47,104 bases of DNA from Bacteroidota bacterium. Lineage in GTDB: Bacteria; Bacteroidota; Bacteroidia; NS11-12g; UBA955. Under the pieces are notes generated by a model. It saw nothing but the letters and a program-made list of their open reading frames with translations, had not been told where the DNA came from and ran no database searches. The stretch is taken from the NCBI GenBank assembly GCA_016868785.1, contig VGFS01000013.1:1-47104 (forward strand). The letters run 5' to 3'. This document shows, piece after piece, positions 23,745 to 28,864 of this stretch. The first letter of the stretch is position 1. Each line of letters opens with the position of its first letter. The translations under genes and the position numbers were made by a program.

Positions 23745-24935
23745 TCAGCGATTGAGTTCGCTCAATGCCAAATAGGCCAACAGTCCACACCCTTGTTCTA
23801 GGGCGTCTTCATCCACGTCAAAAGAGGGATGGTGTACGCTGAAACCGGTGTTTTTCGCTTCGTTTTTGGTGCCTAGGCGATAAAAACAGCTGGGAACGGC
23901 TTGAGAGAAATAGGAAAAATCCTCCGCGGCCATCCATATGCCCAAATCTTCCACGTTGGCATCGCCCAGATACCCTTTGGCCTCCTGTTGTAAATGTTGT
24001 GTGAGCGATTCGTGGTTTTTCAAAAAGGGATATCCCCGACGAATATCGAATTCTACTTGACCGCCCATGCCCTCTACTACGCCTTTGGCAATTTGTAGCA
24101 TCTTTTCGTGGGCCTGACTTCTCCAAGATTCATCCAATGTGCGGAAAGTGCCTTCAATGATCACTTCGTTTGGAATGACATTGGTTGCGCCCGCTGCGAT
24201 GACTTTTCCGAACGATAATACCGAGGGGATGGCGGGGTTGGCAGCCCGTGAAACTACTTGTTGCAACGCCACAATCATGTGGGAACTGATGAGTACCGGG
24301 TCTATGTTGAAATGAGGCATCGCCCCATGGCCGCCTTTGCCAATGACTTTGATATAAATTTCATCCGTGCTGGCCATGTACAATCCCGGACGAAACCCAG
24401 TTTTGCCTGTTTCAATGCCCGGCATCACATGCTGGCCAATCATCACGTCTACTTTGGGGTTTTCCAGCACCCCATCGGCAAGCATCAATGATGCGCCACC
24501 GGGCAATTTTTCCTCGCCGGGCTGAAATACCAATTTGATGCTACCCTCAAAAGAATCTTTGATTTCGGTGAGCAATCGGGCAGCGCCCAACAAACTGGTG
24601 GTATGAACGTCATGTCCACAAGCATGCATCACCCCTTCTTTTTTGCTGCGGTAGGCACGACCATCATTCACCTCCACAATGGGCAAAGCGTCCATATCGG
24701 CCCGCAACCCAACCACTTTTTTGCTTGGATTTTTTCCTTCGATGACAGCCACCACGCCTGTGTTGGCCAATCGTTGCGTGGCCAACCCCAATGATTGCAA
24801 TTCCTTTTCCACCAGTGCGGCCGTTTCAAATTCTTGAAATGAGAGCTCGGGGTGTTCGTGGATGTGGCGACGAAGGCGAATCAGCTCAGGCAAAATCTCG
24901 CCGGCGCGTTGCTTAATGTGATTCTTGAGGTCCAT
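23745..24935 (-). CDS. M20 family amidohydrolase
   Basis: Metal-dependent amidohydrolase/carboxypeptidase of the M20D (IAA-amino acid hydrolase, HipO) group that removes an N-acyl group from amino acids. The ATG at 24935 gives 396 residues, the usual length. Seen: IRLRRHIHEHPELSFQE, GLRADMDALPI, MHACGHDVHTTSLLGAA (metal and catalytic residues), VFQPGEEKLPGGA, GQHVMPG, and WMAAEDFSYFSQAVPSCFYRLG near the end. No signal peptide. It is divergent from dnaG across an 82-bp region. Confidence 0.94.
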   Translation of the reverse strand: MDLKNHIKQRAGEILPELIRLRRHIHEHPELSFQEFETAALVEKELQSLGLATQRLANTGVVAVIEGKNPSKKVVGLRADMDALPIVEVNDGRAYRSKKEGVMHACGHDVHTTSLLGAARLLTEIKDSFEGSIKLVFQPGEEKLPGGASLMLADGVLENPKVDVMIGQHVMPGIETGKTGFRPGLYMASTDEIYIKVIGKGGHGAMPHFNIDPVLISSHMIVALQQVVSRAANPAIPSVLSFGKVIAAGATNVIPNEVIIEGTFRTLDESWRSQAHEKMLQIAKGVVEGMGGQVEFDIRRGYPFLKNHESLTQHLQQEAKGYLGDANVEDLGIWMAAEDFSYFSQAVPSCFYRLGTKNEAKNTGFSVHHPSFDVDEDALEQGCGLLAYLALSELNR

Positions 24936-24968
24936 GGTTGGAATTATTGCTGTAGATGAAGTACTTTG

Positions 24969-24976
24969 CAAATCTA
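24969..24976 (-). promoter_or_regulatory. -7 promoter element of the M20 amidohydrolase
   Basis: TAGATTTG (leftward) matches TAnnTTTG, about 33 bases before the ATG. No comparable element is visible for dnaG. Confidence 0.45.
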
Positions 24977-25017
24977 ATGGTTTCAACATTAGAATAAACC
25001 AACTTAATTATAGCTCC

Positions 25018-26964
25018 ATGATCGTTCAAAGTTCCCTCGACCAATTGCTGAATGCAGTATCCATTGAGGACGTGGTGGGCGATTATGTTTCACTCAAGCG
25101 TTCTGGGTCGCGGTACAAGGGATGTTGTCCCTTCCACGATGAGAAAACCCCCTCTTTTGTGGTGACGCCGAGTATCGGGATTTATAAGTGTTTTGGGTGT
25201 CAGAAAGGGGGGAATGCCATCCAATTTCTGATGGATATTGAGAACTTGAGTTTTGTTGAATCTGCCCGCAATCTCGCCAAGCGCTATGGGGTGGATTTGA
25301 TGGAAACCACGGTTGAAAATCAAGATGTGTATCAAGAGCAGCAGCGACAAAAAGAATCGTTGCAAGCCGCCGTGGATTTTGCGCAACAATTTTTCGTGGA
25401 TCAACTGTTCGATACCGAAGAAGGAAAATCTATTGGTTTGCCCTATTTCAAAGAGCGCGGGTTTACCGTTGATACCATCAAAAAATGGGGCCTGGGCTAC
25501 AGTCCAGAAATTTGGGAAGCCTTAGCCGCCAAATCACACAGCAAAGGATACAATGCCGAGGTGATGGTCAAGGCCGGACTCTTGAAGCAGCGCGATAACG
25601 GTTCCCATTACGATTTGTTTCGGTACCGGGTGATGTTTTCCATCCATGCGGTAACGGGAAAGGTGATAGGGTTTGCTGGACGTAAGATGAGTTCTACCGA
25701 CCCATCGCCCAAATACGTGAACTCCCCAGAAACCGAACTGTACAAAAAGAGCGAGGTGCTGTTTGGGCTTTATCAGGCGAAGAGTGCCATGAAGAAGTTC
25801 GACAAAGTCTTCATGACCGAGGGGTATACTGATGTGATTACCTTGCATCAATCGGGGATAGAGAATGTGGTTGCCAGTTCGGGTACGGCCTTAACGCCCG
25901 GACAAATCAAGTTGCTTAAGCGATTCACCAACAACGTTACGGTGGTCTATGATGGCGATATGGCGGGTATCAAAGCCTCCATTCGAGGGATTGATTTGTT
26001 GTTGCAAGAGGGCTTGAATGTGAGGGTAGTGCCGTTGCCGGAAGGACAAGATCCGGATTCTTACTGTCAGGCACTCGGGGGTGAGGGATTTTTAGATTAT
26101 ATCAACGCCAATGAAGAAACGTTCATTTTTTTCAAGGCGAAGTTGCTGATCGACGATACCAAAAATGATCCTCTGCGGAAATCGGATGCCGTGCGCGAGA
26201 TTCTCAAAAGTGTGGCGTTGATTAATGATCCGTTGAAACGATCTGCCTTGTCTCAGCAGTTGGCTTCGATTTGTGATATCGATCAAGCCACGTTGTTGCA
26301 GGAACTTTCTGTGCTGTTGAAACAGCAGCAGATGAAGGAACGTCAAGATTTTGTAAAAGAAGTTTCGGCTGCCATTGATGCTTCGGGGGTTGTCTTTTCG
26401 CCAGATGGCGAGGTGCAAGACCGGATTCGTGTCAATCTGTTGGGACACAAAGACCAGGAGTTGGCATTGTTCCGTTTGCTGTTGTTGTACGGGGAACAGC
26501 CGTTTTCTGAGGAAGGCAACACAGTCTTTGATTTTGTGTGGAGTGAATTGCAGGGTGATCCAAACCTGGCCATGGAAGATGTGCTGGCCAAAAAGTTGCA
26601 GGCAGAAATTGAAACGGCAGGGAATTGGCCTGGGTCACAACATTTCATTCATCACTTAGACAGCGATATCGCATCATGGGCTGCCGGTGTGCTGGCCGAT
26701 GGGCACCCATTGAGTCCGGCCTACGCCGATAATTTTATCGATGTACTGGATGAAGCGGTGGCGTACAAGGAGCAAGTGATCAACATGTTTTTACATTTGA
26801 GGCGCAAGAAGGTGGATGCGATGATAGAAAATTTGATTGAAATGTTCAAAGAGGAGGGCGCCGAACCCGAATCCTTCGATTTGATGATGGAATATTTGTC
26901 GGAATTGAACGACCTAAAACGACAAATTGCGGAGAAATTGGGAAATTCGGTGAGTCGGATTTGA
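25018..26964 (+). CDS. dnaG: DNA primase
   Basis: Synthesises RNA primers for replication. The ATG at 25018 (MIVQSSLDQLLNAVSIEDVV) gives 648 residues; the frame is open 31 codons further up but with no primase sequence. N-terminal zinc ribbon CCPFHDEKTPSF ... CFGCQKGGNAIQFLM, then the RNA polymerase core with FAGRKM and YVNSPET, the TOPRIM motif EGYTDVITLHQSG and YDGDMAGIKA, and a C-terminal DnaB-interaction part that diverges as usual. Length and order are normal. Confidence 0.96.
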   Translation: MIVQSSLDQLLNAVSIEDVVGDYVSLKRSGSRYKGCCPFHDEKTPSFVVTPSIGIYKCFGCQKGGNAIQFLMDIENLSFVESARNLAKRYGVDLMETTVENQDVYQEQQRQKESLQAAVDFAQQFFVDQLFDTEEGKSIGLPYFKERGFTVDTIKKWGLGYSPEIWEALAAKSHSKGYNAEVMVKAGLLKQRDNGSHYDLFRYRVMFSIHAVTGKVIGFAGRKMSSTDPSPKYVNSPETELYKKSEVLFGLYQAKSAMKKFDKVFMTEGYTDVITLHQSGIENVVASSGTALTPGQIKLLKRFTNNVTVVYDGDMAGIKASIRGIDLLLQEGLNVRVVPLPEGQDPDSYCQALGGEGFLDYINANEETFIFFKAKLLIDDTKNDPLRKSDAVREILKSVALINDPLKRSALSQQLASICDIDQATLLQELSVLLKQQQMKERQDFVKEVSAAIDASGVVFSPDGEVQDRIRVNLLGHKDQELALFRLLLLYGEQPFSEEGNTVFDFVWSELQGDPNLAMEDVLAKKLQAEIETAGNWPGSQHFIHHLDSDIASWAAGVLADGHPLSPAYADNFIDVLDEAVAYKEQVINMFLHLRRKKVDAMIENLIEMFKEEGAEPESFDLMMEYLSELNDLKRQIAEKLGNSVSRI

Positions 26965-26997
26965 GGTTAACTGACTGTATGTTAATGACTTACGTTT

Positions 26998-27013
26998 TTG
27001 GCACGCCGTTTGC
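26998..27013 (+). promoter_or_regulatory. Sigma-54 (-24/-12) promoter
   Basis: TTGGCACG, four bases, then TTGC: an exact match to the sigma-54 consensus, with GG (27000-27001) and GC (27012-27013) separated by the required 10 bases. Transcription would start near 27025, directly at the ATG. Two related direct repeats (TTAACTGAC and TTAATGAC) lie just upstream and could serve an activator. Confidence 0.65.
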
Positions 27014-27025
27014 GTACTAGGGAGT

Positions 27026-27610
27026 ATGTTCAAAAATAAATTAGCGATTCCAACCCTGGTGCTACTTTTTTTGACCGCAGCAGCTATTGGTAGGTCAACA
27101 TTTGGCACCGAGGTTGTTGTACCAGTATCGGATGTGAAGGCATCTGATACCTCAGTGGTTGTTGAAAAGGATTCACTGTATTTCGATACATTGTCTTTAT
27201 CGCTCAAGAAAATCCCAACGGTACAAAACATGTACACTGTGGGTAAGAAGGCCATCGGTAAATGGGCTAAGTTGTTCATTGCTGTGAAGATTGTGGAGAG
27301 TGGAAATGATGGCGACAATAGCATTTACGCACGTCGTGATTTTAACCTCACCGGTATGCGTCAGCCCAGGGCACGCAAGACGCTTTCATTGGGAGCTACA
27401 AGATCTAATTATGCCACATTTGCCAGCTGGTACGATTGTATGGTTGATTTCGGGATGTATTTGAATGGGATGGAAAAGGGATTCAAAAAGAAATTTCACA
27501 AAAGTCCTACCAGCAAAGACATGGTGATGTACATGTATGGTAAATACAACAGTCATCCTGTTTGGAGAGATCGAACATTGGCTGTATTAAAAAAGTTTGA
27601 TTTGAAGTAG
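27026..27610 (+). CDS. Secreted glucosaminidase-like protein (probable peptidoglycan hydrolase)
   Basis: 194 residues, with a signal peptide (KLAIPTLVLLFLTAAAIG). A variable serine/valine-rich linker follows, then a domain resembling the lysozyme-like glucosaminidase fold. The order FIAVKIVESGND ... FNLTGMRQPRARKTLSL ... YATFASWYDCMVDFGMYL matches that family, with Glu91 as the likely catalytic acid. The domain ends in a basic tail. It is predicted to act on peptidoglycan in the periplasm or outside. It is a one-gene unit between a sigma-54-type promoter and a strong terminator. The assignment rests on motif order, not on a search. Confidence 0.6.
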   Translation: MFKNKLAIPTLVLLFLTAAAIGRSTFGTEVVVPVSDVKASDTSVVVEKDSLYFDTLSLSLKKIPTVQNMYTVGKKAIGKWAKLFIAVKIVESGNDGDNSIYARRDFNLTGMRQPRARKTLSLGATRSNYATFASWYDCMVDFGMYLNGMEKGFKKKFHKSPTSKDMVMYMYGKYNSHPVWRDRTLAVLKKFDLK

Positions 27611-27638
27611 TTTTATTGTTCATAGGTTAGTTATAGGA

Positions 27639-27674
27639 TGAGGGGCCCGGCTACGCCGGGCCCCTCATTTTTTT
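27639..27674 (+). terminator. Strong intrinsic terminator
   Basis: A perfect 13-bp stem (TGAGGGGCCCGGC, loop TAC, its reverse complement) followed by seven T on the plus strand, 29 bases after the glucosaminidase-like gene. The right arm includes the TGA stop codon of the convergent MFS gene. Confidence 0.88.
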
Positions 27675-28864
27675 AACCAAGCCAAACTCAAGACCAATCC
27701 CGCTGCAAAACCCGCGCCGCTCACCCCAAAAATGCCCAGGTAATTCCACGAAATACCCTGAATAAAATAATTCGCGGTAAGTCCGCCCACAATGATACCC
27801 AGTTCCAAAAACATGAACAACATGGCCAGCGCCCGCCCGCGGTGCTGCGCAGCCGCGGTGTCGCTGGCCCAAGCAAACAAACTGGGTGCATTGAAACCCT
27901 GTCCAATACCATAAAAAACGGCGGCCAGCCCAAACCAACCAAAGCCCAGGGTTGCGCAATCTTTGCATCCGGTCATGGTTTGATGGTTCAATTCAATGGC
28001 CATATATCCCAAAATGGCCATGGATAGTACCTGTGAAAAAGTGCCAATTGCTGTGCTCCAAGCCCTACCCAACAAATCGCTCACCCGTCCACTCACCAGT
28101 CGAAACAGCAGTGATACCCCTATGTAAATACTGAGAAACAATCCCTTGTTGGCGTATCCCAAGGCCAGCGTAAAATCGGCCATCACCGTCAAGATCGATC
28201 CCAGCGAAATGCAAACCAAAAACATGATCAAACTGGGTTTCCAAGCCGGCCAATAAAACAACTGCGACAATGAAAATTTGAACTTTCGTCGGTGACTCTC
28301 CATGCGCGTCTCCGGCAACTGCATAAACATCATCCAGGCCGTGGTGGCCAGGGCCGCACTCACATAGTACATCCAATCAATCCCGCAATATTGCGCAATC
28401 AAGGCCCCCAATGCATAGCCAATGGTGGTCCCCAAGTTGTTGAACATACCTTGCCATCCCATGGCCCTGCCCCGATGCGATTCTTCCACCACGTCGGCCG
28501 TGAAAGCCGTAAAACCAGTGGGGGTGAATCCTGTTGAAAATCCATGAATCGCCCGAACCACCAAAAATCCCGTAGCGGTGCCTACCCATGGGTAAAAACA
28601 ACCCGCTACAATGCAAAACAGGCAGCCGCCAATCATCGCCACCTTCCGACCCAAATTGTCGGTGATCCAACCGCTGAAAGGACGTGCGATCAATGCACTA
28701 AAAGAAAAGGCTGGAATGAGCCATCCTACATAATCGGCACCGCCGCGTGATCGCAATTCGGCATTGAGCTCGGGTAAAATGAGGTTGAACGACAAGAAAA
28801 AACTCATCGCGCCAAGGCACATGATCCAGAACGACTTGGGATATTTGTAGGCGATGGCGCTCAA
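27665..28864 (-). CDS. Major facilitator superfamily transporter
   Basis: 399 residues, twelve hydrophobic segments. The signature loop between helices 2 and 3 is GWITDNLGRKVAMIGG and the corresponding loop in the second half is GRVSDLLGRAW, both as in drug/sugar efflux MFS. The start codon is TTG; using the first ATG (15 codons in) would cut into the first helix. Substrate unknown. It follows nadE by 29 bp and may share its message. Confidence 0.88.
   Translation of the reverse strand: MSAIAYKYPKSFWIMCLGAMSFFLSFNLILPELNAELRSRGGADYVGWLIPAFSFSALIARPFSGWITDNLGRKVAMIGGCLFCIVAGCFYPWVGTATGFLVVRAIHGFSTGFTPTGFTAFTADVVEESHRGRAMGWQGMFNNLGTTIGYALGALIAQYCGIDWMYYVSAALATTAWMMFMQLPETRMESHRRKFKFSLSQLFYWPAWKPSLIMFLVCISLGSILTVMADFTLALGYANKGLFLSIYIGVSLLFRLVSGRVSDLLGRAWSTAIGTFSQVLSMAILGYMAIELNHQTMTGCKDCATLGFGWFGLAAVFYGIGQGFNAPSLFAWASDTAAAQHRGRALAMLFMFLELGIIVGGLTANYFIQGISWNYLGIFGVSGAGFAAGLVLSLAWLKK

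Follow-up and report, generated by a model that had tools for sequence, protein, structure and literature searches.

Locus and gene product

The stretch of DNA analysed here (the window; 47,104 nucleotides) is contig C13 of the genome of an uncultured freshwater Bacteroidota bacterium (2.07 Mb, 79 contigs). An open frame on its forward strand, from 24925 to 26964, encodes a product recognised by eye, which we take to be DNA primase (dnaG). The dnaG stop lies 61 nt before the ATG of a second forward-strand gene (27026–27610), and this adjacency is kept in much of the family. Downstream, a hairpin at 27638–27668 (+) with a 14-bp stem and a 3-nt loop is followed by a T run. It folds as RNA at −38.3 kcal/mol (z −8.1), which confirms the terminator that had been proposed to close the unit, although the terminator pattern of the sigma-70 scan did not list this hairpin. 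A convergent MFS-like transporter gene (27665–28864, − strand) ends at the same hairpin, which is thus placed so that it could serve that gene too.

The gene at 27026 encodes a protein of 194 aa that the initial annotation described as a secreted glucosaminidase-like product. This description is supported by a hydrophobic N-terminal helix (residues 7–25), by a profile match to PF01832 at threshold (30.5 bits, cut-off 30.2) that is also found in 26 of 34 relatives, and by structural comparison. The AlphaFold model (mean pLDDT 85) retrieved as top PDB folds the GH73 proteins Auto (E 1.4e-4) and AtlA (E 4e-4), followed by FlgJ, a Sphingomonas peptidoglycan hydrolase and a Thermotoga endo-glucosaminidase, with modest TM-scores of 0.4–0.5. 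Searches of NCBIfam and of PDB sequences with the protein gave no match. The Glu91-Ser-Gly (ESG) motif is invariant among the homologues, which makes Glu91 the candidate catalytic residue. Taken together, the product is predicted to be an exported GH73-type enzyme with putative N-acetylglucosaminidase activity. A phage origin was considered and rejected, tblastn against phage records being without match. Orthologues were found in 56 of the 97 genomes searched, the window genome counted in both figures. Of the genomes searched, those with this protein family all belong to the same family of uncultured Bacteroidota as the window genome.

A conserved, probable sigma-54 promoter before the glucosaminidase-like gene

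The sequence TTGGCACGCCGTTTGC lies at 26998–27013 (+), with the ATG at 27026, 12 nt downstream. It comprises a −24 element, TTGGCA (26998–27003), and a −12 element, TTTGC (27009–27013), in which the GG (27000–27001) and the GC (27012–27013) have 10 bases between them. The site thus agrees with the sigma-54 promoter pattern (−24 TGGCAY, −12 TTGC, GG and GC 10 bases apart), and the perfect motif reported by the initial annotation is indeed present. Genome-wide site counts were based on pattern searches and sequence stretches; by this count, the exact TTGGCAYNNNNTTTGC, which contains the −24 element, occurs in the 2.07 Mb genome only here. The bare motif is nevertheless no rarer than chance and is not significant as sequence alone: base composition predicts about 0.5 exact matches per genome, and matches in the window with at most two mismatches are as numerous as in shuffled sequence (35 observed, 35.2 expected). 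A sigma-70 consensus scan of the region likewise gave a number of matches near the shuffled expectation.

Since the bare sequence proves nothing, the case for a promoter rests on conservation. The site is present in all 15 genomes of the window genus (g1, the window's own counted), in 13 with full score and in G008 and G013 with 22/24, and the ATG lies 12–13 nt past the −12 position in every one of them. All six columns of the −24 element and four of the five of the −12 element are invariant, the final C being kept in 13 of the 15. The core columns (TTGGCA, TTTG) are therefore invariant at 10/10 positions, compared with 8/47 of the neighbouring columns, that is, the upstream intergenic stretch, spacer and discriminator (Fisher p = 1e-6). 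The site is also kept, 12–15 nt before the ATG, in genera g2, g7, g8 and g12, despite only about 40–45% identity of their proteins. In position and conservation the site is beyond chance. The figures for the bare motif would suit a chance motif without function, yet the site is conserved at a fixed spacing to the ATG in 15 genomes of the genus and also in four other genera, which leaves that reading with almost no credibility.

Another reading takes the box for the binding site of a repressor, or of some other regulator acting at the start, rather than for a sigma-54 promoter. A near inverted repeat, CATAC-N6-GTATG, surrounds the ATG in most members of g1 and could be an operator, but it is not whole in the window genome, G008 and G013; furthermore, the box resembles the sites before known classes of sigma-54 targets. 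We consider this reading very improbable, and regard the box as a real, conserved and very probably functional sigma-54 promoter of the GH73-type enzyme gene.

The gene occurs without the site in genera g3, g4, g5, g9, g10, g13 and g14, so that its function does not depend on sigma-54 control. On the protein tree (a quick tree with several open forks), gain and loss of the site amount to three changes. Absence of rpoN was excluded as the reason for site loss: most of the genomes without the site still have rpoN, which implies that the promoter, and not the sigma factor, was lost or gained. In the sister genus g4 (L026, L027), a sigma-A-like TATCTTTG stands 5 nt before the same ATG in place of the sigma-54 site, which may reflect a switch of sigma factor that left the start at the promoter.

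The arrangement in g4 also bears on the strongest competing explanation, namely that the gene is mainly transcribed by sigma-A, either by read-through from dnaG or from a promoter that lies within the site or overlaps it, with the TTGGCA-N5-TTTGC box as a minor or additional promoter. Read-through would agree with the position of the gene downstream of dnaG on the same strand, and with g5, in which most copies of the gene overlap or abut dnaG. Against this, the g1 genomes have no TA before TTTG at the spacing of a −7 box, and their entire −24 element is invariant, an invariance that sigma-A would not need. We therefore judge main transcription by sigma-A unlikely, though less so than the two readings discussed above, and retain the sigma-54 promoter as the preferred interpretation.

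Two TTAA(C)TGAC words, TTAACTGAC and TTAATGAC (26967–26989, +), had been proposed as sites for an enhancer-binding protein. The words exist, starting at 26967 and 26982, but they lie at about −59 to −37 of the predicted start, within or beside the polymerase footprint; as a pair they are not conserved in the g1 alignment and do not recur at other sigma-54 genes. Being unconserved, too close to the promoter and unshared, they were rejected as enhancer sites and judged non-functional as a pair. A simple scan found no enhancer element common to the sigma-54 genes.

Sigma-54 machinery and other sites in the genome

The initial annotation named rpoN and genes for bacterial enhancer-binding proteins (bEBPs) as what to look for in the genome, and the lack of rpoN as evidence against its promoter. 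The genome has one copy of rpoN and one bEBP gene of the GAFTGA type, coding for a receiverless AAA+/Fis protein and situated beside what is presumably lptE. Fragments of a second, NtrC-type bEBP lie at the ends of contigs C24 and C62 (L102:6579-7256 and L101:4878-5624), beside a gldKLMN-like cluster; the names of both neighbours were recognised from their products. These fragments appear to be one gene because their extents are complementary. The NtrC-type protein has GSFTSA instead of GAFTGA and may not activate sigma-54, and the lptE-linked protein is presumed to be the likelier activator of the two.

Looser pattern scans found further sites, with an ATG 12–15 nt downstream, before genes for Skp/OmpH (C3:2822), a TlpA-like thioredoxin (C6:44078), a DUF5723 protein (C8:7793), a WG-repeat protein (C11:2115) and Lon (C24:13908); the DUF5723 and WG-repeat proteins are exported. 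Of 30 lon loci sampled across the order, 29 have a site scoring at least 20/24. Weaker sites (20/24) stand 29–32 nt before the ATG of groES and dnaK. Directly upstream of rpoN lies TTTGGCACGATATTTGT (C2:57540-57556, − strand; L097:3041-3057), with the ATG about 29 nt downstream, which suggests autoregulation; PMC12316311 cites a report of rpoN autoregulation in Dokdonia. The core TTGGCACGATATTTGT of this site is also found upstream of rpoN in G008 (C34:120204). A weak site, TTTGGCTCAGTCTTTGC (L058:1501-1517; C9:43810), lies 42 nt upstream of a gene that resembles those of lytic transglycosylases and has a LysM-like end. By its promoter, the glucosaminidase gene belongs to a predicted sigma-54 envelope/proteostasis set with skp, lon, the TlpA-like thioredoxin gene, the DUF5723 gene and rpoN, and groES and dnaK are probably part of the same set.

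Start codons at predicted promoters

The initial annotation had also placed the ATG at the predicted transcription start, and the promoter geometry supports this. If C 27013 is taken as −12, the ATG at 27026 begins at +2; under this convention the predicted start falls at 27024–27026 (+), with a leader of 0–3 nt, and an offset of 15 would lengthen the leader to about 4 nt. The glucosaminidase mRNA is thus probably leaderless. A larger point, which the initial annotation missed, is that several predicted sigma-54 promoters sit on the start codon. At least six genes with sigma-54 sites have their ATG a few nucleotides from the predicted start, which implies leaderless sigma-54 mRNAs. Genus-wide, among the matches listed, sites with a consensus-like −12 element cluster at offsets of 12–15 (10 distinct, 30 in total), other offsets having about one distinct site each. 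The distance from the lon site to the ATG is 13–15 nt in g1, g4, g7, g8, g10 and g12, and mostly 47–58 nt in the sister family f2.

The same tendency is seen for sigma-A. In the window and L284–L303 of the same genome, 44 of 84 matches to the −7 box TAnnTTTG lie 4–9 nt before the ATG (305 genes, matches up to 60 nt before the ATG counted; controls, 3 and 1). The −7 box covers positions −12 to −5 (PMC9723704, PMC6847099); as it ends at −5, a gap of 4 nt puts the ATG at +1. This peak is more pronounced in g1, g4 and g7 than across the remaining genomes of the sample (p = 1.5e-5). In these spacing analyses each gene was taken to start at the first ATG of its longest open frame, about 80 kb was sampled from each genome other than the window's, the genera were grouped post hoc, and genes of one genome do not count as independent. 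The crowding of −7 boxes suggests that leaderless mRNAs are common in the genus, from sigma-A promoters as well. What is new here is the occurrence of predicted sigma-54 starts a few nucleotides from the ATG in a genome whose sigma-A −7 boxes crowd the ATG.

Discussion

We consider it quite probable that a sigma-54 promoter drives the gene of an exported GH73-type enzyme on a leaderless mRNA, within an envelope/proteostasis set. The proposal builds on computed features: the motif, its spacing and conservation, the enzyme family, the presence of rpoN and bEBP genes, and the sites shared with other genes. Sigma-54–RNA polymerase at 26998–27013 would drive a monocistronic gene for a GH73-type N-acetylglucosaminidase. 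The RpoN holoenzyme would stay in a closed complex until a bEBP opened the promoter, the best candidate being the receiverless GAFTGA-type protein beside lptE. The transcript would begin at the start codon, essentially without a leader, and end at the terminator. Membership in the envelope/proteostasis set implies that envelope or protein-folding stress would call for production of the enzyme, which would then act in peptidoglycan remodelling.

The part most worth following is the start-codon placement common to this gene, other sigma-54 genes and sigma-A genes of the genus. To our knowledge, Bacteroidota have no Shine-Dalgarno sequences, and their translation initiation is still debated. In the two Flavobacterium species studied, mRNAs are mostly leadered, and in F. 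johnsoniae 87% of predicted leaders exceed 10 nt. The freshwater clade described here may be largely leaderless, unlike Flavobacterium, with sigma-A and sigma-54 promoters both on start codons and with a leaderless stress regulon (lon, skp, thioredoxin, glucosaminidase); we regard the arguments for and against this broader view as evenly balanced. If it is true, stress control and the mode of translation initiation could be coupled, and studies of initiation in Bacteroidota would gain a natural contrast in a related lineage whose start codons lie at promoters for two unrelated sigma factors.

With the GH73 enzymes FlgJ, AtlA and Auto, the product shares the fold and the invariant Glu in the ESG motif; it differs in its weak sequence match, and no LysM or other wall-binding domain was found in it. 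The regulatory arrangement resembles the PspF-type response, in which a receiverless bEBP and sigma-54 serve under envelope stress, in its receiverless bEBP and its envelope theme. The closest parallel is the SM4 regulon of F. psychrophilum, of the same phylum, with −24/−12 promoters and an envelope stress theme. The mapped sigma-54 regulon of that species includes GroES-GroEL, Lon, DnaK, GrpE-DnaJ, HtpG, Skp and ClpB, together with a thioredoxin family protein and the putative muramidase THC0290_0811 (PMC9723704); matched by class, lon, skp, thioredoxin, groES and dnaK are common to both, and each includes a putative cell-wall enzyme. Transcription starts were mapped in F. psychrophilum, where only 5.5% of mapped mRNAs are leaderless (PMC9723704), whereas here the starts are predicted from promoter geometry. 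The initial annotation regarded signal-activated control of a cell-wall enzyme as unusual. That view needs correction: in Flavobacteriia, envelope and proteostasis genes are known to be under sigma-54, among them the putative muramidase gene of F. psychrophilum (PMC9723704). Given the match between the two gene sets, the predicted control of the glucosaminidase gene is a further instance of an established theme and no oddity, and it would extend the phylum's sigma-54 envelope-stress set by a peptidoglycan hydrolase.
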